Assembly: GCA_018823135.1 (NCBI GenBank)
Contig: JAHJJF010000034.1
Location: 1 to 45,977, forward strand
Reading direction: 5' to 3'
DNA from: Pseudomonadota bacterium
Lineage (GTDB): Bacteria; Desulfobacterota; Desulfobulbia; Desulfobulbales; CALZHT01
DNA: 45,977 nt
Part shown: one piece after another, positions 1-44,276 of the stretch
Position numbering within the stretch: position 1 is the first letter of the stretch
Layout: every line of letters begins with the position of its first letter
Position numbers and translations under genes: made by a program
The notes under the pieces: generated by a model
Seen by the model: only the letters and a program-made list of their open reading frames with translations
What the model was told of the DNA's origin: nothing
Database searches by the model: none

Positions 1-8
1 GAGGTCAA

Positions 9-2283
<2,275 letters not shown>

Positions 2284-2575
2284 GGGAACCCTCCTTTAGG
2301 GCAAATTTGGGTTAAGCTGATTGGATTGATTTAGGCAAACAAAAAATGCCGTGAAGCAAGGCAAAATCCTTTGCCAAGTCTATAAATGTGAACAGGAAAT
2401 TTAATTTTTTTTACAATAGTATATAAAGTAAAAGATGGGAGAAAAATAGACAAGGGGAATGATATTTGACTGAAGAGTTGGCTGACGAATCAGCAATTAC
2501 TATAAACAATTCCTTTAGCACGAGAAGTCGGGTAAATTGTTGAGACACGATAATCATTCTAAGGGAATTTTTCAT

Positions 2576-4162: not shown

Positions 4163-4190
4163 AAAAGAGCCCCGAAGGACTCTTTTTTAT
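4161..4190. terminator. Bidirectional Rho-independent terminator between birA and ahcY
   Basis: An A-tract, AAAGAG, a GC-rich loop (CCCCGAAGGA), then CTCTTTTTT. The stem is flanked by A-run and T-run, so it can stop transcription from birA (+) and from the convergent ahcY (-). Confidence 0.8.
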
Positions 4191-4210
4191 GGGCTACGTG
4201 AACGCTTTAA

Positions 4211-5515: not shown

Positions 5516-5607
5516 AATGTATACTCCTTCAAAAAACTTTCTTGTATCAACGGCGCCGGCAATGTGAAGAAAAACAAAAGCGCCTGTTGAGTAATTGTTT
5601 CAGGTGA

Positions 5608-6774
<1,167 letters not shown>

Positions 6775-6887
6775 TATCGTCCTTCCTTTGTTGAAAAGGT
6801 TTTGAAAAGTATAATAAGTTATTTAGTGTTGCGATAAACCGTTAATTATTGAGCAAAAGCGACGCCTCTGTCAAGAGAAAATGTCAA

Positions 6888-7814
6888 TCAGTTGAGATAT
6901 TTCATCTGCAGATTCCGTACCTCATCTGCAAGTTCTTCATTGACCGGGGTTTCGAGACCTAGAAGCCGGGCCTCGCGAATAAGCGCACCGTTAATGGCTT
7001 CTATTTCGGTTTGGCGCTGATTCCTTATATCCTGCAGCATGCTTGAAATGTTTTGAGAAGTTGCCCTGCACACGGTCTCGGTAAGAGAGACAGGGTTTTC
7101 TGAAATCGTTATCCCTTTTGCTTTTGCGACGTGCAGGGCTTCTTTGACCGCGGCTCTCAACTGGTTTTTGATGGACGGCGTTTCCAATAACCTGCCGTTT
7201 GGGCAATTATGAATTGCGGTTAAGGCGTTGATGCCGATATTAATGAGAAATTTATTCCAGATCTTTGAAAGAATATCGTTGGTAATTACTGTTTCAAAAC
7301 CGGCACTATTTAATAGTTCGGCTGCATGGGCAAGCTTTGCAGCTTCCTGGTCATTCGCAGGAGATAAAAAGCCTAAGGAGGTAATACCTGTGCCACCGAA
7401 ACGTACACGTCCCTGATCGACCAGCGTCGCACCCATAGAGGTTACGCCGGCAACCCAGGGGGAGGACATCTTTTGTTGCAGGATATCCAGATGGTTGATG
7501 CCGTTTTGAAAAGCCAGGAGCAGACTTTCCCGCGATAATAGTTGCGACATGGAGACCAGGGCGCTTTCTGTGTGGTGCGATTTAACGCAGAGAAAAACGA
7601 AATCGGCAATTCCTATGGTTGACGCATCATGGGTAACCGGGATTGACTTTTTTGTTTCAGTGCCGCCCCGTTCTAGAAAAATGCCCTGCCGCGACAGCAG
7701 CAGGGCACGTTTGGGGTCATGGTCTAAAAGCCATATGGCATGATCGGTTCCTGCAGCAAGTGATGATGCCAGCAGGCAGCCTAATGCTCCCGGGCCTATT
7801 ACAACGATTTTCAT
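6888..7814 (-). CDS. panE: 2-dehydropantoate 2-reductase (ketopantoate reductase)
   Basis: This protein reduces ketopantoate to pantoate with NADPH in pantothenate/CoA synthesis. It is 308 aa. The N-terminal Rossmann loop is IGPGALG (residues 5-11). The central FQNGINHLD and GVTSMGA stretches and the catalytic-lysine helix SKIWNKFLINIGINALTAI are clear, followed by the helical ApbA C-terminal domain. The chosen ATG at 7814 follows AGGGAGA; a start five codons earlier would overlap that ribosome site. ApbA/PanE paralogues of other specificity exist, so the function is likely but not certain. Confidence 0.88.
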   Translation of the reverse strand: MKIVVIGPGALGCLLASSLAAGTDHAIWLLDHDPKRALLLSRQGIFLERGGTETKKSIPVTHDASTIGIADFVFLCVKSHHTESALVSMSQLLSRESLLLAFQNGINHLDILQQKMSSPWVAGVTSMGATLVDQGRVRFGGTGITSLGFLSPANDQEAAKLAHAAELLNSAGFETVITNDILSKIWNKFLINIGINALTAIHNCPNGRLLETPSIKNQLRAAVKEALHVAKAKGITISENPVSLTETVCRATSQNISSMLQDIRNQRQTEIEAINGALIREARLLGLETPVNEELADEVRNLQMKYLN

Positions 7815-21960: not shown

Positions 21961-22435
21961 GTTCGCGTCCCTCGCAAGGCGTAATACTTGATTTCTCAAG
22001 TGTTGGTGGGCATTAATTGTCTCAATAATATGTTCATCAGTCCGGAAGAAGCAGTTTTTCAAGGTTTGTACAAAGTAGCCCCGATAAAATAATCATCCTC
22101 ACTCCACTGTCAAGACGTGAAGAAATCTGAAAAGCTTTGGGGTATGATCGAGGGTAAAAAATAACCTTTCATTATGAAAGGAAACCGGAGAAACTATTCA
22201 TTTTTGCCACAGCTACTGAAAAATGGGATGAGGGGCTGAAACAGAATAGGGGGAAAACAAGCTTTTCCCGAGAGGATATGGGTATGTTTCGCCGAGCTGG
22301 CGGGAAGGGAAAAAAGAACTTCTGGATTACAACCCCGGTGCAGGAAAAGTTTTTCCGGAAATTTTACTTTTTGCAAAGAGGAAAAAGAGAGAGTTGATTG
22401 TGTAAATAATCCGCCAGTGAGGAGCAAGCTTTTTT
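21961..22435. other. Intergenic region between htpG and the small paralogue cluster
   Basis: 475 bp without a credible gene. It contains short hairpins (CTTTCATTATGAAAG near 22167, GGGAAAA/TTTTCCC at 22251-22269, CGCC/GGCG near 22291-22303), none with a proper T-run. On the htpG strand, CTTGAAA (near 22060) resembles a heat-shock -35, but no CCCCAT-type -10 follows. No CIRCE element was seen. Confidence 0.5.
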
Positions 22436-22675
22436 TCAGCCTGCAAGTGAGGAAAGCCAACTCTTAACGATCTGCGATATGCCTTGATCGTTAATTGCGC
22501 TTGCCAGACAAGCTATTGCCCAGAATCCTACTATTGCTGCGGCTCCGCCAATGAGCAGGAGATTGGTTTTTGAGACTGCCTCCACTCCATCCTTGGCAGA
22601 GCCGGAATTACCGAAGCGGGTATCGGGTTTTTCTTTAACTTTTACTGTGGCGATCGCTCGTGGTCCATCATCCAT
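22436..22675 (-). CDS. Small membrane protein, divergent third member of tandem paralogue family
   Basis: This 79-aa protein has a polar N-terminal 35 residues and then one hydrophobic helix (about 38-62). Its C-terminal half aligns without gaps to the two upstream small proteins: Ser-Lys, a hydrophobic run with Gly-Gly, Ile/Leu-Gly-x-Trp-Ala-x-x-Cys, then a Lys-(Ser/Ala)-Trp and a terminal Ala-Gly. The N terminus differs, carrying KVKEKPDTRFGNSG. It is the last gene of a three-gene minus-strand cluster. No function can be named. Confidence 0.65.
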   Translation of the reverse strand: MDDGPRAIATVKVKEKPDTRFGNSGSAKDGVEAVSKTNLLLIGGAAAIVGFWAIACLASAINDQGISQIVKSWLSSLAG

Positions 22676-22713
22676 GAAACCGGTTCCTTCAGGTATTCGT
22701 AAATTTTATATAA

Positions 22714-22923
22714 TTACATTCCTGCTACAGCGGTGAACCAAGCTTTTGTCATCGCTAAAGGGCCATTGGACACTACTGCGGCGACAAAACAGGTTGCTGC
22801 CCAGAGTCCGATCAACGCGGAGGTGCCGCCCATGACAGCGATGGCTCCCTTGGAGATAGTATCGATTCCAGCTTGAGTATTTGCGTGTGCGCCGGTTGTT
22901 GTCTGAGTTCTTATGTTTGTCAT
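22714..22923 (-). CDS. Small membrane protein, tandem paralogue 2
   Basis: This 69-aa protein starts MTNIRTQTTTGAHANTQAG and has one strongly hydrophobic segment (about residues 24-50) with GG, Leu-Trp-Ala-Ala-Thr-Cys, then Asn-Gly-Pro and a conserved tail KAWFTAVAGM. It is near-identical to the next gene upstream (differences mainly at Ala/Glu, Thr/Ile, Val/Thr positions), so it arose by recent duplication. AAGGAGATCATC precedes the ATG. Function unknown. Confidence 0.75.
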   Translation of the reverse strand: MTNIRTQTTTGAHANTQAGIDTISKGAIAVMGGTSALIGLWAATCFVAAVVSNGPLAMTKAWFTAVAGM

Positions 22924-22968
22924 GATGATCTCCTTAAATATCAATTAATTAATTTTCATTCAGTCAGA

Positions 22969-23178
22969 TTACATTCCAGCCACAGCGGTAAACCAGGCTT
23001 TGGTCATTGCCAGCGGTCCATTGGAAAGGACTGCGGTGGCAAAACATGCAACAGCCCAGAGTCCGATCAGTGCGGAGGTGCCGCCCATGACAGCGATGGC
23101 TCCCTTGGAGATAATATCGATTCCAGCTTGAGTGTGTTCGTGTGCGCCGGTTGTTGTCTGAGTTCTTATGTTCGTCAT
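22969..23178 (-). CDS. Small membrane protein, tandem paralogue 1 (first gene of sigma-54 operon)
   Basis: This 69-aa protein starts MTNIRTQTTTGAHEHTQAG, with a single hydrophobic helix (about 24-50) containing Gly-Gly, Trp-Ala-Val-Ala-Cys and a short amphipathic tail KAWFTAVAGM. The ribosome site GGAGG is ideally placed before the ATG at 23178; the frame runs on to 23229 but without homology to its paralogue. It is the first gene downstream of a near-consensus sigma-54 promoter about 56 bases before the start codon. The Cys and Trp in the helix are conserved in all three copies. Function unknown. Confidence 0.78.
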   Translation of the reverse strand: MTNIRTQTTTGAHEHTQAGIDIISKGAIAVMGGTSALIGLWAVACFATAVLSNGPLAMTKAWFTAVAGM

Positions 23179-23244
23179 GATGTCCTCCTTGGTATGTTTT
23201 GAAAAATGAATTTTTAAGTTCGTTGTCATTTGCTTTCTCTATAT

Positions 23245-23260
23245 TGCCAGAAGCGTGCCA
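23245..23260 (-). promoter_or_regulatory. Sigma-54 promoter of the small membrane protein cluster
   Basis: On the minus strand the sequence reads TGGCACG-CTTC-TGGCA. The -24 box is perfect, the GG and GC dinucleotides are exactly 10 bases apart, and the -12 box has one mismatch to TTGCA. Predicted start of transcription is near 23234. Confidence 0.8.
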
Positions 23261-23315
23261 ACTAGTATTTATGTAATCATATCAAGCTGTTGATGTTTTC
23301 GCGGCATGGGTTTCA

Positions 23316-23349
23316 TGTCAGAATGGCATGAAAAATTGTCATTCTGGCA
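23316..23349. promoter_or_regulatory. Dyad upstream of the sigma-54 promoter, likely enhancer-binding site
   Basis: TGTCAGAATGGCA (23316-23328) and TGTCATTCTGGCA (23337-23349) form an inverted repeat of 13 bases with two mismatches around an 8-base spacer. Its centre is roughly 100 bp upstream of the predicted transcription start, the usual place for a sigma-54 activator. Confidence 0.65.
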
Positions 23350-23722
23350 AAGAGAAATGTGTTGGTTTTGTTTTTTTCTGTGAAATTAGTTTTTGAACCG
23401 GACTTATGTGGGCGCAGGGCATGCCGAGGAGGAAGATTTCCAATTACAACGTGAAGGATTGCGATCCAGATCTGAACAATAAAAAGGATGTAGGATTGAT
23501 AAAAGATTTTTGGAAAGAAGAGTTAATCCGCTTTTCTCCCAATTTTTACATGCCGATTTTATAAAACTCAGACATCATTATCTGAGGACTGTGTAATTTT
23601 AAACCATTGCTTATTGGTAGCGAGGTGCCCTTGAGAAATGCGGGCTAAGTGCTACTGAGGAAGGTCCGGCTTTTTGAAATAATCCGGCAACTCCAGTTTG
23701 GGGGGCAGCCGTATTTTCCGCG
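23350..23722. other. Intergenic stretch without recognisable gene
   Basis: About 370 bp between the sigma-54 control region and the next small gene. I see no credible ORF with a ribosome site, no tRNA, and no clean terminator. Confidence 0.4.
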
Positions 23723-23968
23723 TTATTCCAGAAGCTCTGCTGGAAGGATGATTTCAACAGCATTTTTATTGACATCCATGAACTTGGATTTGAAAAGGAT
23801 ATTTTCAGAGCTGCGGTCGGACACTTCTGCGTTTGTAACCGCAAAGAAGGTTTGGACTTCGTCAACATAATCGGTAAGGCGTGATCCAGGCATGAGGTCA
23901 ATTTCACCTTTGATTCTATAAGTGTTTGTGAAAATGATTACCGTGGTATTTGGCTTTTCTTCTTTCAT
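23723..23968 (-). CDS. Conserved small protein (DUF6812-like)
   Basis: This 81-aa soluble protein reads as a small beta-rich domain: TTVIIFTNTYRIKGEIDL, then PGSRLTDYVDEVQTFFAVTNAEV, then an ILFKSKFMDVNKNAVEIILP strand pair. The YRIKGEI...PGSRLTDY pattern resembles DUF6812 proteins, but this is from memory only. GGGAGG lies about 6 bases before the ATG. No signal peptide or membrane segment. It stands alone, so context gives no role. Confidence 0.65.
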   Translation of the reverse strand: MKEEKPNTTVIIFTNTYRIKGEIDLMPGSRLTDYVDEVQTFFAVTNAEVSDRSSENILFKSKFMDVNKNAVEIILPAELLE

Positions 23969-24259
23969 CTGGGCCTCCCATGATTCAAGGACTGAAAAAG
24001 CAATTAGATATAATTCCGCCTGACAATGTTATAAAATATGCGTTTAAGTATTGTCAAAAGAAAACACCTCCAAAGAGTCGCGCGCCGAAACCTGTTGCCA
24101 CCCGGAAGCCGATCGTTCACCGCCTCTTCAACCGTAAGAGTTTACGTCGGTTTTGCGGTATGAGGCGTGAATTTGTGCCGCAGTTGCAGGGCACGCAGGG
24201 AAAGATTTGCTGGTTTAAGATAGGGACTGAGGAAGAAATGGGATTATAATAAAAGGGCG

Positions 24260-24339
24260 TTCCGGTAAAACGGAAAATACTGACTTGCTTTTTCCGGAAA
24301 AACAGAATATAGTAAGTTTAATATTTCGGTAAACCGGAA
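24260..24339. promoter_or_regulatory. Three dyads at exact 32-bp spacing, likely enhancer-binding sites
   Basis: TTCCGGTAAAACGGAA (24260-24275), TTCCGGAAAAACAGAA (24292-24307) and TTTCGGTAAACCGGAA (24324-24339). Each is an inverted repeat TTCCG-N6-CGGAA with at most one arm mismatch. The period is exactly 32 bp, about three helical turns, so all three lie on one DNA face. They sit about 140-205 bp upstream of the predicted sigma-54 start site. Confidence 0.75.
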
Positions 24340-24448
24340 TGCGAGAGGTTGGGAGCAGTTTAATCCTTGTTGGGTTAAAGATGTATCTCCCTGTAATAAT
24401 AAAGCAAAAATAATTTATTCATAAATCAGGCAAAACAGGTAGCGCTGG

Positions 24449-24464
24449 TGGTATAAAATTTGCA
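24449..24464 (+). promoter_or_regulatory. Sigma-54 promoter of the PEP-CTERM gene
   Basis: TGGTATAAAATTTGCA: GG and GC are exactly 10 bases apart and the -12 box TTTGCA is perfect; the -24 box keeps only TGG. The predicted start is near 24475, leaving a leader of about 86 bases. Confidence 0.65.
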
Positions 24465-24560
24465 AAAATAAGTGATGACATTTTAATTGATCTTGCTAAT
24501 AGCAGACTGATTGCGTACTATTAATTTAATATCTTCCTGAAACCAATAAGAGGTTTTACC

Positions 24561-25322
24561 ATGAACAAAAAAGTTTTGATAATCTCCGCCGCACTTATTT
24601 CTCTTGTATTCATCGCTGCAGGCACAGCTCCGGCATTAGAGATAGTTCCGGATAGCTACACTTTTACACCCAGCGCAGGTTACCAGCACGAAGGGACTTG
24701 GACATATGACGACCCGGGGCTTTCCAAGCTTACCGACGGGATCTATGGTGAAGACAATTGGACTGTAAATCAAGGTGCCGAATGGGTTGGCTGGCAAGGG
24801 ATTGCTTGGGACGGCTCATACGTAGACGGTAAGATTACCAAGGAAAATTATGATTTTCGCTCAATTGAGTTGAATTTTGATTTTGGAGAAGTAGTCACTT
24901 TGAGTTCGCTGGTTTTAGGTATTAATCAGGATGCGCTGTTTACCTGGAATGTTGTTTTCCCCAGTTATATTTCCGCAGAAACAATATCTTCCACCCTGGA
25001 AACACCATATGATTCAGCCAATTCAGGGCCTAATCCTCTTGGAAACGTCTATAATAATGGTAGACGTCATGATGTGATTTTTAATTTTGACCCCATTACA
25101 ACCTCTACATTTTCAATCACTCTGAACAATGCAGACAATTTTGATAAGCTCCTGTGGGAAAATTTTAACGATGGGATGTTCTGGATTTTTGTTGATGAGG
25201 TTGATTTTTATGATAAGCATGTGAATCCGGTTCCTGAGCCCGCAACCATGCTTCTTTTCGGAACAGGCCTTGCTGGATTGGCTGGAGTAATCCGGAGAAA
25301 AACAAAGAATTTATTAAAATAA
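24561..25322 (+). CDS. PEP-CTERM sorting-domain protein
   Basis: This 253-aa exported protein begins with a signal peptide (MNKKVLIISAALISLVFIAAGTAPA) and ends with a PEP-CTERM tag: VPEPATMLLF, a transmembrane run GTGLAGLAGVI, then a basic RRKTK end. Exosortase removes such tags as the protein reaches the surface. The middle is rich in aromatic and Asn/Asp residues and looks like a beta-sandwich of secreted matrix proteins. AAGAGG precedes the ATG. The sigma-54 promoter fits PEP-CTERM genes elsewhere that are governed by the PrsK/PrsR two-component system. No exosortase lies in the window, but an exopolysaccharide locus of the associated type starts at 43.6 kb. Confidence 0.9.
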   Translation: MNKKVLIISAALISLVFIAAGTAPALEIVPDSYTFTPSAGYQHEGTWTYDDPGLSKLTDGIYGEDNWTVNQGAEWVGWQGIAWDGSYVDGKITKENYDFRSIELNFDFGEVVTLSSLVLGINQDALFTWNVVFPSYISAETISSTLETPYDSANSGPNPLGNVYNNGRRHDVIFNFDPITTSTFSITLNNADNFDKLLWENFNDGMFWIFVDEVDFYDKHVNPVPEPATMLLFGTGLAGLAGVIRRKTKNLLK

Positions 25323-25352
25323 CATTTATCGAATTTATCCATTATTTTCTTT

Positions 25353-25389
25353 ATGCCGATCCGGGTGAAACCGGATCGGCATTTCTATT
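25353..25389 (+). terminator. Rho-independent terminator after the PEP-CTERM gene
   Basis: ATGCCGATCCGG and CCGGATCGGCAT form a perfect 12-bp stem around a GTGAAA loop, followed by TTCTATT. It insulates the PEP-CTERM gene from the glycosyltransferase gene. Confidence 0.88.
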
Positions 25390-25506
25390 GGCATTTGCCA
25401 TCATCAACAATTCCTGTAAAGGTGTTGTTTTTTGTAGAAGAATTTTTAGCAGAAGTGTAGCGTGATCTCTCAAAGGGGTCCGTTCGACGCGGTACGGGTA
25501 TATGCG

Positions 25507-25531
25507 CTTACCGAAGAGTTGTTCCGGTAAG
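25507..25531. promoter_or_regulatory. Inverted repeat upstream of the nfrB-like gene
   Basis: CTTACCG (25507-25513) and CGGTAAG (25525-25531) frame an 11-base spacer, 36 bases before the TTG start. The right arm with its flank reads TTCCGGTAA, the same nine bases that begin the first dyad at 24260. It could be a shared operator or a leader hairpin. Confidence 0.4.
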
Positions 25532-25566
25532 GATCAAGATGTGACAATAATCTCCGGGTAATTCAA

Positions 25567-27636
25567 TTGGACTTGGATAACATCATTTTCATAATCTATT
25601 TAATTTCCAAGGTTTCGCTGGTTGTGGCCGCAGTGATTTTTCTTATTAGCGGAATCGATGATATTATCTTTGATTTCTATTTTTTCATCTGGCAGGCCTA
25701 CCGCAAGCTCTTTGTGTATAAAAGGCACAAACGCCTGGAAGAAAATGATCTTTTGCAAAAAGAAGAGCAGTATATTGCCATGTTTGTCCCTGCCTGGCGA
25801 GAAGAAGCAGTAATAGGCAAGATGCTGCTCAACACGGTTGGGTCCATTGACTACAAAAAATACCATATTTTTGTCGGCACCTACCCGAATGATGACGGAA
25901 CCAGGCTTGAGGTTGAAAAGGTGCGTCAGGTTTATGGAAATATAACACGAGTTGTTTGCCCTGAAGATGGACCGACGAATAAGGCTGACAACCTGAACTG
26001 GATCTATCAGGGCTTGATTGCCTTTGAAAAGGAAAACAAGCTTCGCTTTAATATCATGGTCATGCATGACAGCGAGGACATTATTCATCCCCTGTCCCTG
26101 AAACTCTATAATTATCTGATGCCACGATTTTCCATGGTGCAGGTCCCCGTATATCCTCTCCCATGTCCGGTCACTGATTTAACCTGCGGTATTTACATTG
26201 ATGAATTCTCTGAAAATCACAGCAAGGATCTTCTGGTTCGCGAACGCTTTGACGGCTGCATCCCGGCAGCGGGAGTTGGCTGTGCATTCTCAAGGGAGGC
26301 CCTTGAAGCTAAGGCCGAGATGAACAATAATCTCTTGTTCAACACCGATTCCCTTACCGAGGATTATGAGTTCGGCATGGGGCTGCGGGATGTTCCCGGA
26401 AAGAAAATTTTTGTAAAACAACCCATCTTCCGGGTTGTTACCGGCGCTGACGGCAAATCGAAAAAAAAGGAAGAAATTATAGCCACAAGAGAATTTTTTC
26501 CAAGCCGCTTTTGGGCGGCAGTCTCGCAGCGAAGCCGCTGGACACTGGGGATTGCCATTCAAGGTTGGCAATCTCTTGGCTGGAGGGGAAGTGTATCGAC
26601 TAAGTTCGTACTGTACAAGGACAGAAAGGTTCTGGTAACGAGCTTGATTAATCTCCTTGGCTATGTAGCCTTCTTTTATTTTATCGCGGAACTCATATTG
26701 AAAAAAAGGATGGGCTATTCCATCCTGCCGCCGTTGGTCAGAGGCGATTCCTGGATTGTATATGTCATAATTATCGATACGTTTATAATGCTGCAGCGTC
26801 TTGGCAGCAGGTTTTATTTCGTCACCAGGATTTTCGGCCTGGCGCACGGGTTCATGTCTATTCCAAGAGTATTCTGGGCAAATATTCTGAATTTTTTCGC
26901 CACCTATCTGGCAATCTATCAATTTATTAGATCCTTATTTACCAAAGAAACCATTGCCTGGTCAAAAACCTCCCACGAGTATCCAACCGACGAGCAACTC
27001 ACACATTATCGCCGGAAGCTGGGAGATCTGCTTCTGGAGAGACGTTTTGTTTCGGTGGAACAGCTCAACCAGGGACTTGCCATCCAAAAGGAGACGGGTA
27101 AACCTCTTGGAGAAATTCTTGTAGAGATGGGACACCTGGAGGAAGAAGACCTCATGTATTCTCTCGGGAAACAATACAATGCACCAAGTGAAGTTTTAAA
27201 TCCCCATGAAACGGAACTTTCCCTCCTCCAGAGTGTAAGAAAAGACATTTGTGAAGAGTTTCAATGCTATCCGGTCAGGCGCGAAGCGGAGATTCTTGTC
27301 ATGGCTACCTGCGATATCAGTTTATATAATGATCCGGTAAAGCTGAAACAAGCCTTGAGCGACGAACCGTCTATTGCCATGATTTTGAGTTGCAAGCCGG
27401 ATATTGATTTTGCTATCCAGCGCGGATACGGGCGTTTAGCCTCCGGTGAACCCACAGCAAAGAATACTTTGGGCAGCAGGCTGATTGAGGAAGGCATGAT
27501 AACCCCCGAACAGCTTGAGACAGCAATCAGGCGTCAGAAACGGACCAACGAAAGACTCGGGGCGGTTTTAATTGATATAAAAGCCATAAATGCTGAAGAC
27601 CTGGATAATGCGTTAAGTCGAAATCCTCATCCGTAA
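25567..27636 (+). CDS. nfrB: NfrB-like processive glycosyltransferase with two MshEN c-di-GMP modules
   Basis: This 689-aa inner membrane protein has an N-terminal membrane helix (about 6-42), a family 2 glycosyltransferase domain (about 70-330), three or more C-terminal membrane helices (about 355-460) and a cytoplasmic tail. The processive motifs are visible: D168-x-x-D171, T264-E265-D266 and Q321-x-x-R324-W325. The tail holds two pairs of the 24-residue MshEN motif (x-L-G...L...G...L...Q), each split by a 5-residue spacer: 484-507/513-536 and 634-657/663-686. MshEN pairs bind c-di-GMP, as in E. coli NfrB. Translation starts at TTG; the first in-frame ATG is about 70 codons in and would delete the first helix. 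The next gene begins 5 bp after the stop. Likely role: c-di-GMP-activated synthesis and export of a surface glycan. Confidence 0.88.
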   Translation: MDLDNIIFIIYLISKVSLVVAAVIFLISGIDDIIFDFYFFIWQAYRKLFVYKRHKRLEENDLLQKEEQYIAMFVPAWREEAVIGKMLLNTVGSIDYKKYHIFVGTYPNDDGTRLEVEKVRQVYGNITRVVCPEDGPTNKADNLNWIYQGLIAFEKENKLRFNIMVMHDSEDIIHPLSLKLYNYLMPRFSMVQVPVYPLPCPVTDLTCGIYIDEFSENHSKDLLVRERFDGCIPAAGVGCAFSREALEAKAEMNNNLLFNTDSLTEDYEFGMGLRDVPGKKIFVKQPIFRVVTGADGKSKKKEEIIATREFFPSRFWAAVSQRSRWTLGIAIQGWQSLGWRGSVSTKFVLYKDRKVLVTSLINLLGYVAFFYFIAELILKKRMGYSILPPLVRGDSWIVYVIIIDTFIMLQRLGSRFYFVTRIFGLAHGFMSIPRVFWANILNFFATYLAIYQFIRSLFTKETIAWSKTSHEYPTDEQLTHYRRKLGDLLLERRFVSVEQLNQGLAIQKETGKPLGEILVEMGHLEEEDLMYSLGKQYNAPSEVLNPHETELSLLQSVRKDICEEFQCYPVRREAEILVMATCDISLYNDPVKLKQALSDEPSIAMILSCKPDIDFAIQRGYGRLASGEPTAKNTLGSRLIEEGMITPEQLETAIRRQKRTNERLGAVLIDIKAINAEDLDNALSRNPHP

Positions 27637-27641
27637 AGGCC

Positions 27642-30600
27642 ATGAAAAATAACTCTGTTAATAAACTTGCAGTATGTTTCCTGGTTCTGGGCGCGCTCCA
27701 TTTGTACGGAGGGTCCGGTTCCATTGAACAAAACATGTCTTCAGGGGAAGGCGCCCTGGCGGTTCTTGGCCTGGATATTCCCCTTGCTCGTGCCGCAGCT
27801 GAGAAGAAAGGGGATATTTACGACATCATACCAGAAAGAATCGAGCTTCCGGCGCCCCAGGACCTGCGCAATTGGTTTGCAGATCAGAAGGCCTATGTGA
27901 AAACCTATCGCTACTTCGACCGCGGCTACAGGAATATCCAATCCGGGAAATTTCAGGCTGCGGCAGAGGATTTTATCACTATACTTTCCAAGGATCCTGG
28001 AAACCGTCTTGCGCCGCTTTATCTTGCGGAAATTGAAATAAAGTTGGGTAATATCGAACGCGCCATCTCGATTCTCGAGAAATACCTTGTTCAATATGGC
28101 GATAGTGGTGAAGTTCGGATGCAGTTGGCTTTTATCTATCTTGATCAGGAAGAGATTGACAAGGCACTGACTTCTTTTGAAAAAGCAGCTGAGCACCTTA
28201 ATCCAGACACCCGGGAATATTTAACCGCACAGGCAAATCTTGCTGAAATATATTTGAAAAAAGAGCAGTTTCAAGAGGCTCTGGTGCCCCTGGAATATCT
28301 GCAGAAAAGATATCCGGATAATGGATTGCTCTTATACAAGATCGGTTTTTGTCTCAAATCACTTCTCCGGAAGGAGGAATCAAAGGATTTTTTTCAACGT
28401 GCCCTGAAAAGCCAGAATCTTAAAGGTGAAGCAATAAATAATTGCCGATTGGAACTCGCTTATATTGCATACAGTCAGAGATCCATGAGAGAGGCAAAGG
28501 AACTCCTGGAACAAATAATTGAGTCTTCCGAACCGGACAGCTTGGCGCAGCTCACAGCCCGGTCTCAGCTTATGGATGTATTCCTGGAAAGTGGGAATGA
28601 TGCGGCGGTTATAACACAGTATAATGCAATTGCCCCTGCTGACAGGTCCCCACAGATCAAGATAAAAGCGGCCTATGCTGAAAAGAATCTGGGAAATAAT
28701 AAACAGGCCGTGTTTCTTTTTGAAGAGGTACTCTCTTCAGGGGGACTTGATAAACAAGAAATAATGGTCCGCCTTGACCTTGCCCGGCTCTTTGTAATGC
28801 AAGAGGAATGGGTCCGTGCTGAGAATCAGCTCAAGATTATTCTTGAAGATCAGGAAGTAGAAAGTCAAACAATTGAAAACGCACAGGTTCTCATTGCTGA
28901 GATAATGATTGGCCAGGGGAGGTTGGATGAGGCAGTAAAGATCATTAATAAGCTGCAAAAGACAACGGCCGGAATCTATGCGGCCTTCAGGATTGCAGAA
29001 CTCTATAATGCAAAGGGTGAATTTGCCCAAGCTGAAGGGATTCTTCGAAAACTTGCCGAAAGTGACGCTTTTAAGGCGCCGGACAGAGCCCGGGCAACAA
29101 TGGAACTGGCTTTTTTGCTGAGCGGTCATGGCCGGACGCAGGAAGCGGCAACCCTTCTTGAGAAAGTATTGCAGAGTAAGGAGCTAGCCTCCGAAAATAG
29201 AACTCTTGCTGAAAGAAATCTTGCGCAATTGCAATACAGACTCGGCAATTATCCGGAAGCTCTTGCCCTGGCAACATCTTCTTATAGGCAATCATCAGAC
29301 CCGTCTCTTCTGTTTCTGCTCGCCTCAACGCACGCCGCTCTTTATAAGGACAAAAATATCGCTCTACCGAAAACCCGGGAATCAACGGCTCATTATCAAA
29401 GTGCAGCTGGCTTTTTTCAGAAGATAATAGATGACCCGACTGTTGATATTGCAATGCGCGATAAGGCGCTCAATCATCTTGCTTTTCTCCATCTCGAAGG
29501 CGGTCGCGCTGATTTGGCCAAAGATTTATTCAGCTCAATTTTGTCCAAGGGCCCGGATAATTTATTGGTCATTGAAACGTTAATGGAACTGGCAAAGCAG
29601 GAAAGGAATGCTGAAGAATATCAGTCTTATTTGCAGAGGTATGAGTCCCTGGTAAACACCAGTGAATTACAAGTCCAAACAGCTGAAACCCTGATGGAAT
29701 TGGGTTATTATCAAGAGGCTCTGAAGCGATACGAAAAGCTGTTACTGAATGAAAAACGATTAGCTGTAAAGGCTGATATCTATCGGAACATGGGCTTTCT
29801 TGGTTTGAAAATTGATAATACCAGCCTGGCAATAGACTCTTTTCAGAAGTACCTGCAGATAACTCCGCAGCATGACTTGGAAGTTATTGCGCAGCTCGCA
29901 GAAATCTATATTAATTCTGAAAATTGTGCCGCTGCAATCCCCTTGCTTGAAGACTTGATCAAACAGCGACAAGGATTCAAGGGGTATCTCCAACTTGCAC
30001 GATGCAACAATGAAATCGGCAATAATCAAGAGGCTGTTCTTTGGTACGGGAAAATCCTTGAGTTGAGCTATAGGCCTGACATTGTTCTTGAGACTGCCCA
30101 AGTCCATGCGCAACTAGGTAATATTAATCAGGCGATACTCTATCTTGATTCGCTGACCAATTTGACTAGTCTCGATAATATGCAACGGTTAAAAACACAT
30201 CTTTTACTTTCTAAATATCATGGAAGTCTGGGAAATAGAGAACTCCAGAGAGAATTTGCCGGCAAATCTCTTCTGGCCGCTCCTGAAAACGCAGATATTG
30301 CAGACCTGTTTTATGCTTCGGTAATAAGTGGGATTCAGAGCCCGGCTCGCGAACAATATGTGAAAAAGGTGCAGGCGGATCCGGATCCCCGTTCCCGGGC
30401 TGCAAGATTGTATGAGATGGCTGAACTTTATGAGATCGGCGGAGATGCTGATCAGGCCCTGGAAACCATAATTCAGGCCGTGAACGCCGAACCCCTTGCT
30501 CTTTATATATTTAAACGAGGAGAGCTCCTGTACAACAAAGGGGATTTTGAAAAAGCGCTGGCAGATTTTCAAGCGACCTGGGAGCATGAGCCGCGCTCCG

Positions 30601-32165
30601 CGCTGTATCTTTCCTTTATTTATGCCCACCAGAAAAAACCCGGCCTGGCGATTGATTACCTTGAACAGTCCATTGACATGCATAAAGAGATGGATACTGA
30701 ACTCAAGGCAAGGATGTTTGAGCAGCTGGTCTTTCTTTATTTTGATGAGGGGCAGGTTGAGAAATCCCTTGCTGTTGCTGATAAGGCGCTGCTTTTATGG
30801 CAAGGTGATAATCCGGAAATTATCATGGCCAAGGGCCAATCACTGATCCGGCTGAATCGACCGGAAGAAGCCATGGTTCTAGGCCGTGCCGGGCTTGAAA
30901 AAGCCGCAACCGGGGAAGAAACGGCAAAGTGGCAGAAAATAATGGGCGATGCCGCCCGGGCAATGAATGATTTGGAAGCATCGAATAATTTTTATCAGGA
31001 GTACCTCATTGATTTTAAAGATGACGCGGATGTGAATTATTTAATCGCAAGCAACCTGTTCAAGATGGGTAACTATGAAGAAAGCCGGAAATATATTGAA
31101 AAAGCAATAGCACTCGACCCCGGGAATCTGACATACCTGCCCGACTATAGTTTCGTACTGATCAAGCTGAACGACATCGAAACTGCGCAAAAAGTCCTGG
31201 ATCGTTATCTGGCTCATTATCCGCAAGGCCTTGTTGTGTTGGAAGATGCCGCTTTTTTGAATATGAGAGAATGTAATAATCAAAAAGCCGCCAACCAGTT
31301 CAAACAGGCAATGGACATAAGGCAGCTCCGTCTTGCCACAGCAGACATTGCGCCGGAAGAATTGAACGTCCAGAGGGCATATATTTACGGGTTGAAAGAA
31401 ACCGTTTTGAGCCTTGAAAAAGAATTTTCTTTTTCGGCGTATTTGAATAGGCTTGATCTTGCAGGCAGCGGGACCACCCTTTATCGTGGCACCATAGCCT
31501 CACAGCTGGGCTTTGAGTTTGGCTGGCGGCCCGAAACCATAGGGATGCGTGACCAGCGAATATTTGAGTTTACCGGCCGGTTGCTTGGTAGTTTTGAAGG
31601 TCGGTCATGGACTTATGATGAGAAAAGCACGCAACTGGCAGTGGGTGCCAGATATAAACCCTTTAAACCCGTTAATTTTTTTGCTTCCTTTGAACGGTTG
31701 ATTAAACTGGGTTCCAACAGTGAAGATAACTGGCTGCTCCGTGGCCTGCTCTCTGAAAGCTGGGGGCGCAACCCGCAGTTCGGTCCACAGTCCTGGCATT
31801 CCGGATCTGTATATTTTGACGTAGCCGGATTTCTTGAAAACAGCAACTCCGGCACCCAACGGATTGCGGTGTATAGTGAATTCAAAGACGGGATCCTTTT
31901 TCGCCTCAATGAAAACTGGGGCATGGTTCCTCATTTGATCATCGACATGCATTGGGACGATACCCAGGATGCCCTGGGTACCTACCTGGAGGGAGGGCTT
32001 GGGGTTGAGCTTCTTGGCTGGCATCACGAAACGAGATATAAGGCCCATGACTGGCGCACCTCTGTTTTTCTTCAATATAAGTGGGGGACCTTCGATGATC
32101 TTCCGGTTGGAGAAGAGGGCAAGGGTTATCATGGCCCAGTATTAGGAATCAGTGTTACACATTGA
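27642..32165 (+). CDS. nfrA: NfrA-like TPR/outer-membrane glycan export protein
   Basis: This 1507-aa exported protein begins with a signal peptide (hydrophobic run AVCFLVLGALHLYG). From about residue 85 to 1200 it is almost entirely tetratricopeptide repeats, with recurring AxxxLxxAxxxxP and LGxxxxAIxxxxK patterns. The last 250 residues are beta-rich with alternating hydrophobic strands (RYKPFKPVNFFASFERLIKLGSNSEDNWLLRG...). They resemble the C-terminal domain of E. coli bacteriophage N4 adsorption protein A. E. coli NfrA is about 990 aa; this one is longer, mainly through extra repeats. The layout also recalls BcsC/PgaA, with periplasmic TPRs plus an outer-membrane pore. It starts 5 bp after nfrB and is followed 10 bp later by the DUF4434 gene, so the three form one operon. 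Confidence 0.85.
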   Translation: MKNNSVNKLAVCFLVLGALHLYGGSGSIEQNMSSGEGALAVLGLDIPLARAAAEKKGDIYDIIPERIELPAPQDLRNWFADQKAYVKTYRYFDRGYRNIQSGKFQAAAEDFITILSKDPGNRLAPLYLAEIEIKLGNIERAISILEKYLVQYGDSGEVRMQLAFIYLDQEEIDKALTSFEKAAEHLNPDTREYLTAQANLAEIYLKKEQFQEALVPLEYLQKRYPDNGLLLYKIGFCLKSLLRKEESKDFFQRALKSQNLKGEAINNCRLELAYIAYSQRSMREAKELLEQIIESSEPDSLAQLTARSQLMDVFLESGNDAAVITQYNAIAPADRSPQIKIKAAYAEKNLGNNKQAVFLFEEVLSSGGLDKQEIMVRLDLARLFVMQEEWVRAENQLKIILEDQEVESQTIENAQVLIAEIMIGQGRLDEAVKIINKLQKTTAGIYAAFRIAELYNAKGEFAQAEGILRKLAESDAFKAPDRARATMELAFLLSGHGRTQEAATLLEKVLQSKELASENRTLAERNLAQLQYRLGNYPEALALATSSYRQSSDPSLLFLLASTHAALYKDKNIALPKTRESTAHYQSAAGFFQKIIDDPTVDIAMRDKALNHLAFLHLEGGRADLAKDLFSSILSKGPDNLLVIETLMELAKQERNAEEYQSYLQRYESLVNTSELQVQTAETLMELGYYQEALKRYEKLLLNEKRLAVKADIYRNMGFLGLKIDNTSLAIDSFQKYLQITPQHDLEVIAQLAEIYINSENCAAAIPLLEDLIKQRQGFKGYLQLARCNNEIGNNQEAVLWYGKILELSYRPDIVLETAQVHAQLGNINQAILYLDSLTNLTSLDNMQRLKTHLLLSKYHGSLGNRELQREFAGKSLLAAPENADIADLFYASVISGIQSPAREQYVKKVQADPDPRSRAARLYEMAELYEIGGDADQALETIIQAVNAEPLALYIFKRGELLYNKGDFEKALADFQATWEHEPRSALYLSFIYAHQKKPGLAIDYLEQSIDMHKEMDTELKARMFEQLVFLYFDEGQVEKSLAVADKALLLWQGDNPEIIMAKGQSLIRLNRPEEAMVLGRAGLEKAATGEETAKWQKIMGDAARAMNDLEASNNFYQEYLIDFKDDADVNYLIASNLFKMGNYEESRKYIEKAIALDPGNLTYLPDYSFVLIKLNDIETAQKVLDRYLAHYPQGLVVLEDAAFLNMRECNNQKAANQFKQAMDIRQLRLATADIAPEELNVQRAYIYGLKETVLSLEKEFSFSAYLNRLDLAGSGTTLYRGTIASQLGFEFGWRPETIGMRDQRIFEFTGRLLGSFEGRSWTYDEKSTQLAVGARYKPFKPVNFFASFERLIKLGSNSEDNWLLRGLLSESWGRNPQFGPQSWHSGSVYFDVAGFLENSNSGTQRIAVYSEFKDGILFRLNENWGMVPHLIIDMHWDDTQDALGTYLEGGLGVELLGWHHETRYKAHDWRTSVFLQYKWGTFDDLPVGEEGKGYHGPVLGISVTH

Positions 32166-32175
32166 GACGTAACGC

Positions 32176-33237
32176 ATGATGCAAGGTATTAAACGTAATT
32201 CCTTTCTGTTTCTCCTTGGTTTGATCCTGGCGCATTCCATTTTTGGGAGTATTTCTTCCGGGATGGAAGTATCCGTTCGTGGACAACAAAATCCTGCCCC
32301 CGGAATCTTTATCCAGCCCAATAATCAGATGGCTGCCTGGCCTGAGAAACAATGGCAGCTTGAGTTCCAACGCATGCAGGACCTTGGCTTCAAGGTGTTA
32401 ATTGTGCAATGGTGCCGCGATAAAGATATTTTCTATTACCCCTTGCCGCCGGATTCAGATGACAATCGTCCCGGACAGGTCGCCATCCCTCACAGGAATA
32501 TGCTCGGCACGATTAAACGTTTTGCCGAGCAGTTCGGCATGGAGTTCTATCTTGGGCTCTATCATGAAGCGTCTTTCTGGGAGCAAATCAAACAAAAACC
32601 GGAACTCCTTGAAGGCTATCTGCTCAGCTTGGGAGAGCGAAATTTTGAGGTGGCTAAGGCATTGTTGCCACTGGTGAAGGATTCTCCAGGTTTTAAAGGT
32701 TTTTACATTCCTCAGGAGGTCGATGATCTCACCTGGATGGATAAAGATAAGGCCCGACGTTTGAGCTTGTTCCTTTCCCGTTTGACCGAGCGGTTGAAAA
32801 GATTGCAACCTGATGCGGATGTTTTAATCAGTACTTTTTTCCGGGGCCGCTCTTCTCCGGGATCTTTTGCCGAAATGTGGCAGATGATTTTATCCCGGAC
32901 CAGGATAGATGTACTTCTTGTTCAGGATGGAGTGGGAAGTGGAGAGGTGTCACTGCATTTTCTTGAGCGATACCTGGTGGAGTTGCGGAAACGATTACCA
33001 GAAGGGAAAAACCGGTTATGGGGTGTGGTAGAGGCCTTTGATGTGATCACCGATGAAAAGCAGGAGTTTGTTGCCGGCAGCGCCCCTATGGCAAGAGTCC
33101 AGCAACAAATGTCCACAGCAGATCCCTTAGTGGACAAACTTGTCTTCTTTTCTCTTAAGTACTTTATCCCTTCCGCAGAGGTTCCCGGTTCCAGGGAATT
33201 ATCCACTGATTATTTGAAACGGAGAGAAGTCCGTTAA
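32176..33237 (+). CDS. DUF4434/YbcH-like periplasmic TIM-barrel protein
   Basis: This 353-aa exported protein has a signal peptide (FLFLLGLILAHSIFGSISSG). The rest reads as a TIM barrel with the pattern of DUF4434 proteins: IFIQPNNQMAAWPEKQWQLEF, LGFKVLIVQWCRD, EFYLGLYHEASFW, FKGFYIPQEVDD and IDVLLVQDGVG. Acidic residues at strand ends (the Glu of PQEVDD, the Asp of VQDG) could form a glycosidase-type active site. In E. coli the DUF4434-type gene ybcH neighbours nfrB and nfrA. It begins 10 bp after nfrA. Its stop overlaps the convergent wecB stop by 4 bp. Likely role: trimming or modifying the exported glycan; not shown. Confidence 0.8.
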   Translation: MMQGIKRNSFLFLLGLILAHSIFGSISSGMEVSVRGQQNPAPGIFIQPNNQMAAWPEKQWQLEFQRMQDLGFKVLIVQWCRDKDIFYYPLPPDSDDNRPGQVAIPHRNMLGTIKRFAEQFGMEFYLGLYHEASFWEQIKQKPELLEGYLLSLGERNFEVAKALLPLVKDSPGFKGFYIPQEVDDLTWMDKDKARRLSLFLSRLTERLKRLQPDADVLISTFFRGRSSPGSFAEMWQMILSRTRIDVLLVQDGVGSGEVSLHFLERYLVELRKRLPEGKNRLWGVVEAFDVITDEKQEFVAGSAPMARVQQQMSTADPLVDKLVFFSLKYFIPSAEVPGSRELSTDYLKRREVR

Positions 33238-34388
33238 GGTCGGCTGGCTTTGTTTCTCAGAAATTCCAGGCAGCCGTCAACAATCAGTTTTGCCGCCCTG
33301 CCATCTCCGAACACCTTACTCGGTACTGCCATTTTGTTGTATCGTTCCTGGTTTTTCAGGATATCAAGGGCCTCATTGATAATTGTTTGGGCGTCCGTGC
33401 CGACCAGTTTGGCAACCCCGCTTTCCACCGCTTCGGGTCTTTCCGTAACATCCCGCATGATTAATGTTGGTTTGCCGAGAACAGTTGCCTCCTCCTGGAT
33501 GCCGCCAGAATCGGTGAGCACTAAGTAGGCATTTTTTAAAAGAGCGACAAAGGAGAGGTAATCCAAGGGTGAAACCAGAAGGATATTGTCCAGGTCACCG
33601 ATTAATTCGTGCACCGGTTTCCATACATTGGGATTCAGATGCACAGGGTAGACAAGGCAGGCGTCAGGTATCTCTCTGGCGATTTCCCGCAGGGCTTTGC
33701 AGATGTTTGAAAAACCGTGCCCAAAGCTTTCGCGGCGGTGACCTGTGACCAGGATGAGACGTCTGTTGTCAACTGTTTTCAGGATTTTTGCAACCTCGTG
33801 TGAAGCTTTGTATCGACCCTTGTCAATGCCATCTGAAATGATCTGCAGGCTGTCAACAACCGTGTTTCCGGTGATTACAATTTGATTTTCCGGGACATTT
33901 TCCTTGCGGAGATCGTTGTAGGCTTTTGTTGCCGGGGCAAAATGCAGATCCGCCAGAGGGGTGACGAGCTGCCGGTTGATTTCTTCAGGAAACGGCAGGA
34001 ATTTATCGTGGGTCCGGAGGCCTGCCTCGACATGACCTACAGGGATTTTCAGATAAAAAGCGGCAAGGGCCCCCATGCATGCAGAGGTGGTGTCGCCCTG
34101 GACAAGAACCATGTCCGGCTTGAGTTGTTCGAGAGCTGGGGCAAGTGCACGTATCAGGCGGCCGGTCAGGTCCGGCAAGGTCTGGCTTTCCTGCATCACA
34201 TCAAGATCCATGTCCAGGCTGATACCCAGAGAGTTGACGATCTGGGCCTGCATGTCTCGCTGCTGGCCGGTGGCAAGGGTGAGGCCGACACAATTTTCCC
34301 TGGCCTGCAATTCTTTGATGACCGGAAAGAGTTTGATAACTTCGGGCCTGGTTCCAAAGATGGTCACTATTCTGGTTTGTTGAGTCAT
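33234..34388 (-). CDS. wecB: UDP-N-acetylglucosamine 2-epimerase (non-hydrolysing)
   Basis: This 384-aa enzyme interconverts UDP-GlcNAc and UDP-ManNAc. Family signatures are GTRPEVIKLFPVI (residues about 11-23), LVQGDTTSACMGALAAF, HVEAGLRT, FPEEINRQ, and the C-terminal TDSGGIQEEATVLGKP and TERPEAVESG. It lies tail-to-tail with the DUF4434 gene, sharing 4 bp. WecB is required for the NGR glycan in E. coli, so its place beside nfrAB suggests it supplies UDP-ManNAc (or a derivative) to the glycosyltransferase. No wecC or other ManNAc enzyme lies in the window. Confidence 0.95.
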   Translation of the reverse strand: MTQQTRIVTIFGTRPEVIKLFPVIKELQARENCVGLTLATGQQRDMQAQIVNSLGISLDMDLDVMQESQTLPDLTGRLIRALAPALEQLKPDMVLVQGDTTSACMGALAAFYLKIPVGHVEAGLRTHDKFLPFPEEINRQLVTPLADLHFAPATKAYNDLRKENVPENQIVITGNTVVDSLQIISDGIDKGRYKASHEVAKILKTVDNRRLILVTGHRRESFGHGFSNICKALREIAREIPDACLVYPVHLNPNVWKPVHELIGDLDNILLVSPLDYLSFVALLKNAYLVLTDSGGIQEEATVLGKPTLIMRDVTERPEAVESGVAKLVGTDAQTIINEALDILKNQERYNKMAVPSKVFGDGRAAKLIVDGCLEFLRNKASRP

Positions 34389-35275: not shown

Positions 35276-36631
35276 TTATTTTTCAGTTATTTCATAATTG
35301 CCTTGCGCATCAATCTGCACGACCGCATTTAGCACCTTGTTTTCATAGCCGTTTTTTCTCAGCGCTTCAGCTGCCATTCCGGCCATGATCCCGGTATTGC
35401 AATGGATAATGATTTCCTCGTCTTTGGGGATTTCACCAAGCCGTGATTCCAATTCGGCAAGCGGGATATTCGTCGCACCGGCGAGCTTTCCCTGTTTCGC
35501 TGTGGCGCGATCGCGGACATCGAGAATGAACTTGTCCGCAGGCATGCTTTTGGCAATGGCCTTAAAATCCCAGATACTGATTTCTCCTTTTGGGGTCTTT
35601 TTAATATAGGTTATGGCCGTGGGCATATTGCCGGGAATGATTTTCCCTTGTGATGCTGCCCAGCCTGCCACTCCATTATTCAGCGTGGAGGTGTTTTTGT
35701 ACCCCCAGCCGCGGACAAGATTAAACGCTTCAAGATCATTTGCTTCTGCAGAGTAAAGGATGATAGGTGCCGTTTTATCTGATGGGAACTTGTCCTTGGC
35801 GGTTGCAAGTTCACCTGCAGGTATTGAAACGGCATCAGGGATATGGCCTTGTAGCGCCACAGCCGGAGCCCTTATGTCAACCAGGACGAATGAAGCATCA
35901 TTTTTCATCATGCGCTTGATGAATTCCGGTTCGGAAACTAAAATGCCGCCGGCTTTTTTCCATTCAGGCATTCCGGCATGGAAAACACGGATGCTGGTAT
36001 AACCGAGCTTTTCCGCAAGACTTGCGGAAGAAGGACTCAAAGCTCAGGTAAAGCCCCCGCAGTAAAAAATGATTTGCATGTCCTTTTTCGGCGGGAGAAC
36101 CTCTGCCCCAAGTTCTTTGAGTTTGGGGAATGGAATTGACACGGCTCCGGGGATATGGCCGGAAGCAAAAGCATCAGGAGGGCGGGAGTCAATAATGATA
36201 ATATTTCCACCGGCTTTTTCTGGAGCGGTGATTTCCAGCATCTCGTCGACGGAAACAATTTGTTCTTCTGGAAGTTTGAAAGGTTGTTTGGCGGAGATCT
36301 TTGCTGCGATAGGTTCTTTTTCAGTGCCTTGAAAAGTAACGGCGATTTCCGTGTCTTTAGTGAGGGCATCAAGAGAGTCGGCACCGATAATTTCGGTGTT
36401 TTTGTCATATTTTACTATCCAGACGAGGGGGCCGACGTCGACCTGAACGGTCTGGAATTTTTCAGAATGCGAGACTTTTTTGCCGCGTATGACGTTTTGC
36501 TCGGCAATGTGGCACGTTTTGCAGCCCGGCATAATGTTGGGTTTTGAAGCAAAGGCGTGGGTTGTGTTCAACAGAAACCCGAGGGTGATGCCCATGACTA
36601 TGATGACATGGACTGATTTTTTTGAAAACAT
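35276..36631 (-). CDS. Rhodanese selenoprotein with haem c motif (Sec encoded by TGA at 36044-36046)
   Basis: Read through one in-frame TGA, this is a 451-aa exported protein with signal peptide (cleavage near AFA-SKP), a CxxCH haem c motif (C37, C40, H41), a beta-rich segment (about 50-115) and three rhodanese domains: about 125-226, 228-330 and 345-451. The first has a CGGFT-U-ALS loop (C191, U196); related proteins carry Cys at this second position. The second lacks its cysteine (YSAEAN). The third has HCNTG (C411). The frame and domain continue unbroken across the TGA, and a strong hairpin with bacterial SECIS geometry follows it. Cut at the TGA, neither half is a complete set of domains. 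AGGAGG precedes the ATG. Sec-containing rhodanese-like proteins have been reported in deltaproteobacteria. Likely role: sulfane-sulfur or selenium transfer in the periplasm, with electrons via the haem. Confidence 0.88.
36005..36046 (-). promoter_or_regulatory. Bacterial SECIS-like element with Sec TGA codon
   Basis: The TGA codon is 36046-36044. On the minus strand, GAGCTT (starting in the TGA) pairs with AAGCTC. Inside, TTCCGCAA pairs with TTGCGGAA around a GTC apical loop, with a 10-base bulge on the 5' side. The loop starts 22 bases after the TGA and begins with G, matching the geometry of known bacterial SECIS elements. Confidence 0.85.
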
Positions 36632-43646: not shown

Positions 43647-44276
43647 GTGATTTCAAGCAAAAGGGTAAGAAAGACGATTCTATTGATCAGTATTTGCTGC
43701 TTTTGCGGCCTTTTATGTGCTGAATTTTTGGCCGCCGAAGAAGCCCCTGCGAAGATTGAACCTTCTCAGTCGGCAGTGAAAATTTCGGACAAGAGCAGTT
43801 ATATCATTGGGCTTGCAGACCGTCTGGAGGTTCAGGTATGGAAGGAAGAATCTCTTTCCCGGATGGTTACTGTGAGGATCGACGGCAGGATTTCATTGCC
43901 GCTGGTCGGAGATGTCGATGCTGCCGGTCGGTCTCTTGAAGGATTGACCGAGGTTTTGAAGGAGAAGTTGTCCAAGGTTGTATCTGAGCCGGCAGTTACG
44001 GTGATCCTCATAGAAAGTAGAGGTCAGCGATACTACGTGGTCGGCAAAATCAACCAGCCTGGTGAGTTCACAATCGATTTTCCTTTAACTATCCTGCAGG
44101 CCATCGCCCGAAGCGGCGGATTTCTTGAATGGGCCGAAAGGGATGATGTGGTTGTGGTGCGAAGGGAAAACGGCAAGGAAACGTTTCTGAGGTTTGATTA
44201 TGATGCTTTTATCAAAGGAAAAAATCCCGGCCAGAATATTTTGATTAAACCCGGAGATACGATTTTAGTGCCTTGA
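43647..44276 (+). CDS. Wza-like polysaccharide export protein
   Basis: This 209-aa exported protein has an N-terminal hydrophobic signal with several cysteines (ISICCFCGLLC), which may include a lipobox. The Poly_export domain follows: YIIGLADRLEVQVWKEESLSRMVTVRIDGRISLPLVGDVDAAGRSLEGL. A SLBB-type segment (YYVVGKINQPGEFTIDFPLTILQAIARSGG) and the closing IKPGDTILVP complete it. It is short for Wza and close to exopolysaccharide export proteins of XrtA/PEP-CTERM loci. The start is a GTG behind GGAAGG. First gene of an operon with the barrel and chain-length genes. Confidence 0.9.
   Translation: MISSKRVRKTILLISICCFCGLLCAEFLAAEEAPAKIEPSQSAVKISDKSSYIIGLADRLEVQVWKEESLSRMVTVRIDGRISLPLVGDVDAAGRSLEGLTEVLKEKLSKVVSEPAVTVILIESRGQRYYVVGKINQPGEFTIDFPLTILQAIARSGGFLEWAERDDVVVVRRENGKETFLRFDYDAFIKGKNPGQNILIKPGDTILVP

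Follow-up and report, generated by a model that had tools for sequence, protein, structure and literature searches.

The locus described here lies in the window, that is, the whole 45,977-nucleotide stretch of DNA that was analysed, and consists of three genes on one strand and a fourth that converges on them (Table 1). The nfrB-like, nfrA-like, and DUF4434 (YbcH-like) genes are separated by intergenic gaps of 5 nt and 10 nt, respectively, and the wecB-like gene runs toward them with its stop codon overlapping that of DUF4434, which places wecB outside the nfrB-nfrA-DUF4434 operon. All four genes named in the original prediction were confirmed as open reading frames, and each exceeded the curated cut-off of at least one matching family. 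By its sequence, the locus belongs to the NfrBA-YbcH-WecB system as a divergent representative. Three local peculiarities were observed, namely a convergent wecB, which is rare, two complete MshEN modules, which is a minority state, and an unusually long NfrA.

Table 1. Positions of the genes, domains, and predicted functional residues of the locus in the window
Feature	Position	Strand	Description
nfrB-like gene	25567..27636	+	processive GT2 synthase of the inner membrane whose C-terminal region binds c-di-GMP (predicted); TTG start, 689 aa
GT2 catalytic domain of NfrB, residues 70-327	25774..26547	+	PF13641
MshEN module 1, NfrB residues 484-536	27016..27174	+	8/10 and 9/10 canonical positions
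MshEN module 2, NfrB residues 634-686	27466..27624	+	complete; 9/10 and 8/10 canonical positions
nfrA-like gene	27642..32165	+	TPR-repeat periplasmic region and outer-membrane barrel; 1507 aa
NfrA C-terminal barrel	31425..32159	+	12 predicted strands; AlphaFold2 pLDDT 92.1; PF13283
DUF4434 (YbcH-like) gene	32176..33237	+	hydrophobic N-terminal segment and TIM barrel; predicted periplasmic glycoside hydrolase
Codon of E181, end of strand 4	32716..32718	+	predicted acid/base; 35/35 homologues; strand E173-183
Codon of E286, end of strand 7	33031..33033	+	predicted nucleophile; 34/34 homologues; strand E280-286
Stop-codon overlap DUF4434/wecB	33234..33237	.	tail-to-tail; from the sequence
wecB (nfrC)-like gene	33234..34388	-	UDP-GlcNAc 2-epimerase, TIGR00236; convergent to the nfr operon

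Directly upstream of nfrB, a PEP-CTERM sorting-signal protein of 253 aa is encoded at 24561-25322, from which the genome probably has an exosortase system, and an inverted repeat at about 25355-25380, after this gene, suggests that nfrB is transcribed from its own promoter. Between htpG and the PEP-CTERM gene, a 2.5-kb stretch without a long open reading frame contains tandem 223-nt direct repeats that are 87% identical (22713-22935 and 22968-23190). On the other side of the locus, two adjacent genes (35276-36631) carry three rhodanese-type stretches in all and adjoin those for a MarR regulator and a thioredoxin-type arsenate reductase. An XrtA/PEP-CTERM exopolysaccharide export-like protein, scoring below its family cut-off (128 vs 180 bits), is encoded at 43647-44276, and a second polysaccharide system may start near the contig end. 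On the contigs compared, two genomes of the same family had only htpG in common with the neighbourhood of the window, so that no empty site was identified that would point to a recent insertion into a syntenic position.

The GT2 domains of the window NfrB scored above the Pfam cut-off, and the general glycosyltransferase model NF012033 of NCBIfam matched with 618 bits against a cut-off of 537. The score for the enterobacterial NfrB equivalog NF008411 was 539 bits, below the cut-off of 1170, and the protein was hence filed as a divergent NfrB-type synthase rather than as enterobacterial NfrB. The DxD, TED, and QxxRW motifs are all present and are invariant across 88 homologues, save for one homologue at T264. 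In the NfrB tree, the window sequence grouped with sequences of the PVC group and not with those of Desulfovibrionaceae or Geobacteraceae (support 96, with a long window branch), a placement that may at most hint at an origin by transfer. Three genomes of the same phylum clustered with Desulfovibrionaceae, which makes the desulfobacterial assignment plausible, although only in an indirect way.

The MshEN module, which is composed of two 24-residue motifs with a 5-residue spacer between them, has been defined from the crystal structure of MshE (PMC5013675), and E. coli NfrB has been shown to bind c-di-GMP with a Kd of 1 μM (PMC8669469). The c-di-GMP motif model NF053729 recognised two stretches in the window NfrB (115 bits, cut-off 38), and the agreement of the motifs with the c-di-GMP consensus is no poorer than in E. 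coli NfrB, which has one motif pair and a further half. The c-di-GMP-binding motifs of the window NfrB are intact. By a relaxed test, 49 of the 88 NfrBs have one module, 22 two or more, and 17 none; as a control, shuffled C-termini gave 0.03 motifs compared with 2.8 in the real ones. Two NfrBs (loci L053 and L023) have three complete modules each, which suggests that the number of c-di-GMP sensors on these synthases is variable. At another locus (L028, G280:C273), an NfrB-like synthase of some 479 aa, which stops short of the MshEN region, lies beside wecB, with NfrA and DUF4434 on a different contig, and this synthase is apparently without this c-di-GMP control.

As for the source of the signal, a linked diguanylate cyclase was not found, no GGDEF domain being present in the window, and the genome as a whole contains 20 GGDEF domains. 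No Rfam family reached its gathering score in the window either; the weak matches at 22000-28000 were chance-like, and riboswitch control was rejected. cGAMP signalling is known from Geobacter, and this was counted in favour of the alternative in which cGAMP, and not c-di-GMP, is the signal for the system. MshEN does bind cGAMP, although more weakly than c-di-GMP (PMC5013675). However, the fit of the window motifs to the c-di-GMP consensus and the abundance of GGDEF domains in the genome both argue for c-di-GMP, and a response to cGAMP is considered very unlikely.

The original prediction had been made to depend on the C-terminal domain of the large protein being that of NfrA, and the domain was identified as NfrA_C (PF13283) with 73.8 bits against a cut-off of 25, the sole one in the genome. 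The AlphaFold2 model of the C-terminal 327 residues consists of helices followed by the barrel, which resembles outer-membrane channels including BcsC, PelB, and AlgE, although with a low TM-score. At its length, the protein exceeds almost all NfrA frames measured, compared with 990 aa in E. coli.

The third gene of the operon was identified as DUF4434 by PF14488 (169 bits, cut-off 30), and the AlphaFold2 model built from 24 sequences has the fold of a (beta/alpha)8 barrel (pLDDT 85.6). In clan GH-A enzymes, the acid/base glutamate is located where strand 4 ends and the nucleophile where strand 7 ends. The DUF4434 model conforms to this pattern, having the barrel and a Glu pair, E181 and E286, at the C-terminal ends of these two strands. 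E181 is among the residues invariant in 35 homologues, together with Q47, W60, Q78, Y177, D183, D184, W187, S219, F221, and Q250, and E286 is kept in all 34 homologues that cover its position. E. coli YbcH retains both glutamates. The nearest solved structure is PDB 4h41 (Z 27.4, rmsd 2.9, 282 residues), followed by GH164, GH5, and GH2 enzymes with Z of 18-20. This structure is that of BT_0435 of Bacteroides thetaiotaomicron, which has a profile E-value of 2.8e-17 with DUF4434 and both glutamates aligned; its label as a putative alpha-L-fucosidase comes from the database only, and it has no known membership in an Nfr locus. We also considered deducing the sugar specificity from the closest mannosidase and mannanase folds, and this was dropped because numerous clan members score within 1-2 Z units of one another. 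The papers searched contain no mention of DUF4434 or PF14488, nor of YbcH together with glycoside hydrolase.

Based on these structural predictions, DUF4434 is probably a periplasmic glycoside hydrolase of the Nfr polymer. The alternative is that it is a catalytically dead TIM barrel which binds the polymer as a periplasmic scaffold. The E. coli authors indeed regarded YbcH as an auxiliary or scaffold protein in the periplasm that is probably anchored, and found that N4 infection does not require it and that the effect on motility depends on it only in part (PMC8669469), and the fold alone is no proof of activity. A role as a hydrolase must therefore be an accessory one, and the dispensability for N4 infection fits a trimming enzyme. 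A scaffold, however, would have no reason to keep the exact catalytic pair at the ends of strands 4 and 7 across several phyla, here alongside the invariant D183, D184, W187, Q250, and Y177, and we consider the scaffold unlikely. On balance, we favour the interpretation that DUF4434, including E. coli YbcH, represents a hitherto undescribed family of clan GH-A glycoside hydrolases that act in the periplasm and are devoted to the Nfr (N4 glycan receptor) polymer. The NfrB-NfrA-DUF4434-WecB cassette, which occurs in many phyla, would then be a synthase-dependent system that brings along an enzyme of its own for cutting the polymer.

The distribution of the genes was determined among related and distant genomes. 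NfrA_C was found in one of 58 near relatives searched, the genome of the window itself, and above the cut-off in eight of 395 genomes of the phylum. The NfrB search gave the identical eight (of 390), and DUF4434 was above the cut-off in those eight and one more, in which the match starts 531 bases from a contig end. The occurrence of NfrA_C, NfrB, and DUF4434 in the same genomes is thus not a matter of chance. In five of the seven other genomes of the phylum, wecB adjoins the nfr genes; one of the remaining two has none within the stretch examined, and in the other the contig ends. Among 80 NfrB loci of named organisms, ranging from Pseudomonadota to Verrucomicrobiota, Kiritimatiellota, WOR-3, Elusimicrobiota, and Acidobacteriota, 59 have wecB and 41 all four genes, the corresponding numbers being 41 and 31 for the 50 loci with ample flanks; WOR-3 and Elusimicrobiota have at least NfrB and wecB. 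The linkage of wecB is, therefore, not unique to this genome, a result on which the original prediction had been staked. Since the four-gene set is common and wecB is usually on the strand of the synthase (58/59 loci; upstream in 52), the convergent wecB of the window represents an unusual arrangement of a common set. A second NfrB lineage (L076, L084, L092, L099, L103, L107, L108, L110, L114, L115, and L117), found in Xanthobacteraceae and Stenotrophomonas, has DUF4434 and nfrB on opposite strands, and its wecB lies about 2 kb upstream of nfrB, which leaves space for another gene between these two.

The window WecB matched TIGR00236 with 429 bits (cut-off 210) and keeps all of the E. coli WecB residues K15, D95, E117, E131, and H213. 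A second WecB-type epimerase is encoded in the genome among other polysaccharide genes on contig C47 (L005, G000:C47), where positions 1-7718 contain a FemAB-like gene, a polysaccharide-deacetylase-like gene, and two epimerase-fold genes, one of which is this second WecB. The presence of the latter and the lack of co-transcription of wecB with nfrB would be compatible with the convergent wecB being a chance neighbour that serves lipopolysaccharide or capsule synthesis, with NfrB using another sugar nucleotide. In the maximum-likelihood tree, however, the window WecB was placed inside a set of 66 sequences (support 98/92) that comprises 62 of the 63 nfr-linked WecBs and only four others, including the ECA enzyme of E. 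coli, whereas the C47 WecB was placed outside it; the exact place of the window WecB inside the set is unsure owing to its long branch. Furthermore, wecB was within reach of NfrB in most of the 80 loci, and no further gene of a ManNAc pathway was recognised among the neighbours examined. Such a chance neighbourhood thus seems improbable, and, judging from the tree, the supply of UDP-ManNAc is likely dedicated to NfrB. The dedicated pathway postulated in the original prediction has thereby gained support beyond what was then claimed.

The resemblance to the E. coli Nfr system proposed at the outset holds gene for gene. The two have in common the four protein families, the order nfrB-nfrA-ybcH, the intact glycosyltransferase and MshEN motifs, the catalytic residues of WecB, and the Glu pair of YbcH; they differ in that NfrB is only 32% identical, in the number of MshEN modules (two complete compared with one and a half), and in that wecB is in the ECA operon in E. 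coli and adjacent and convergent here. The idea that this linkage is undescribed finds no support: the linkage of nfrBA-ybcH with wecB in many bacteria, with deltaproteobacteria among the NfrB carriers, was published in 2021 (Junkermeier & Hengge, 2021; PMC8669469), as was an Achromobacter cluster with linked wecB (PMC8669472). In the nfr clusters of Pseudomonas soli and Achromobacter xylosoxidans, wecB is physically linked to nfrBA, as it is here (PMC8669469, PMC8669472). In contrast to other wecB-linked nfr clusters, no gene for a diguanylate cyclase, an O-acetyltransferase, or a BcsB-like protein was recognised in the window. The Pga, Bcs, Pel, and Alg systems share the plan of a GT2 synthase (or equivalent), a TPR and outer-membrane barrel protein, a periplasmic carbohydrate enzyme, and control by c-di-GMP, whereas MshEN takes the place of PilZ or PgaC/D control here and a 12-strand barrel is predicted. 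Identity with PgaABCD was rejected, the PgaA porin profile TIGR03939 giving 30.7 bits against a cut-off of 366.65. The locus is, therefore, a new divergent member of a published system, and what is new is the predicted hydrolase, the occurrence in a wider range of phyla, the phylogenetic evidence that WecB is of the nfr type, and the three peculiarities of this locus.

Taken together, we consider it highly probable that the locus encodes an Nfr-type synthase-dependent exopolysaccharide pathway. The gene content, the intact catalytic and ligand motifs, the conserved linkage, and the nfr-type WecB were obtained here, with the folds by prediction, and we infer the use of ManNAc, activation by c-di-GMP, export of the polymer, and its hydrolysis to occur as follows. 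WecB would convert UDP-GlcNAc to UDP-ManNAc in the cytoplasm, and NfrB would polymerise UDP-ManNAc and move the chain through the inner membrane upon binding of c-di-GMP, made by one of the 20 GGDEF proteins encoded elsewhere in the genome, to its two MshEN modules. The TPR array of NfrA could then take the chain across the periplasm to the outer-membrane barrel, and DUF4434, as a membrane-anchored periplasmic TIM-barrel hydrolase, may trim or clear the chain, as BcsZ does in the case of cellulose and PslG in that of Psl. The separate, convergent transcription of wecB suggests that the regulation of the sugar supply is distinct from that of the synthase. The mechanism is also supported by the E. 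coli genetics of NfrB, NfrA, and WecB (PMC8669469, PMC8669472). Counted against it are the position of wecB outside the nfr operon, the lack of a GGDEF gene or an Rfam riboswitch in the window, and the nature of the polymer, which was still called enigmatic in 2025 (PMC11990801). A ManNAc polymer would, in this organism, be an extrapolation from E. coli, and a role as a phage receptor would be speculation.

The Nfr polymer of E. coli is the receptor for several groups of phages. If DUF4434 cuts the polymer, the recombinant protein would serve as a specific reagent for releasing, sizing, and identifying the E. coli glycan, and the invariant Glu pair would give a clean catalytic mutant. More broadly, the wide presence of the cassette, including in Verrucomicrobiota, Kiritimatiellota, WOR-3, and Elusimicrobiota (in the latter two, NfrB and wecB at least), indicates that this exopolysaccharide is not confined to enterobacteria.
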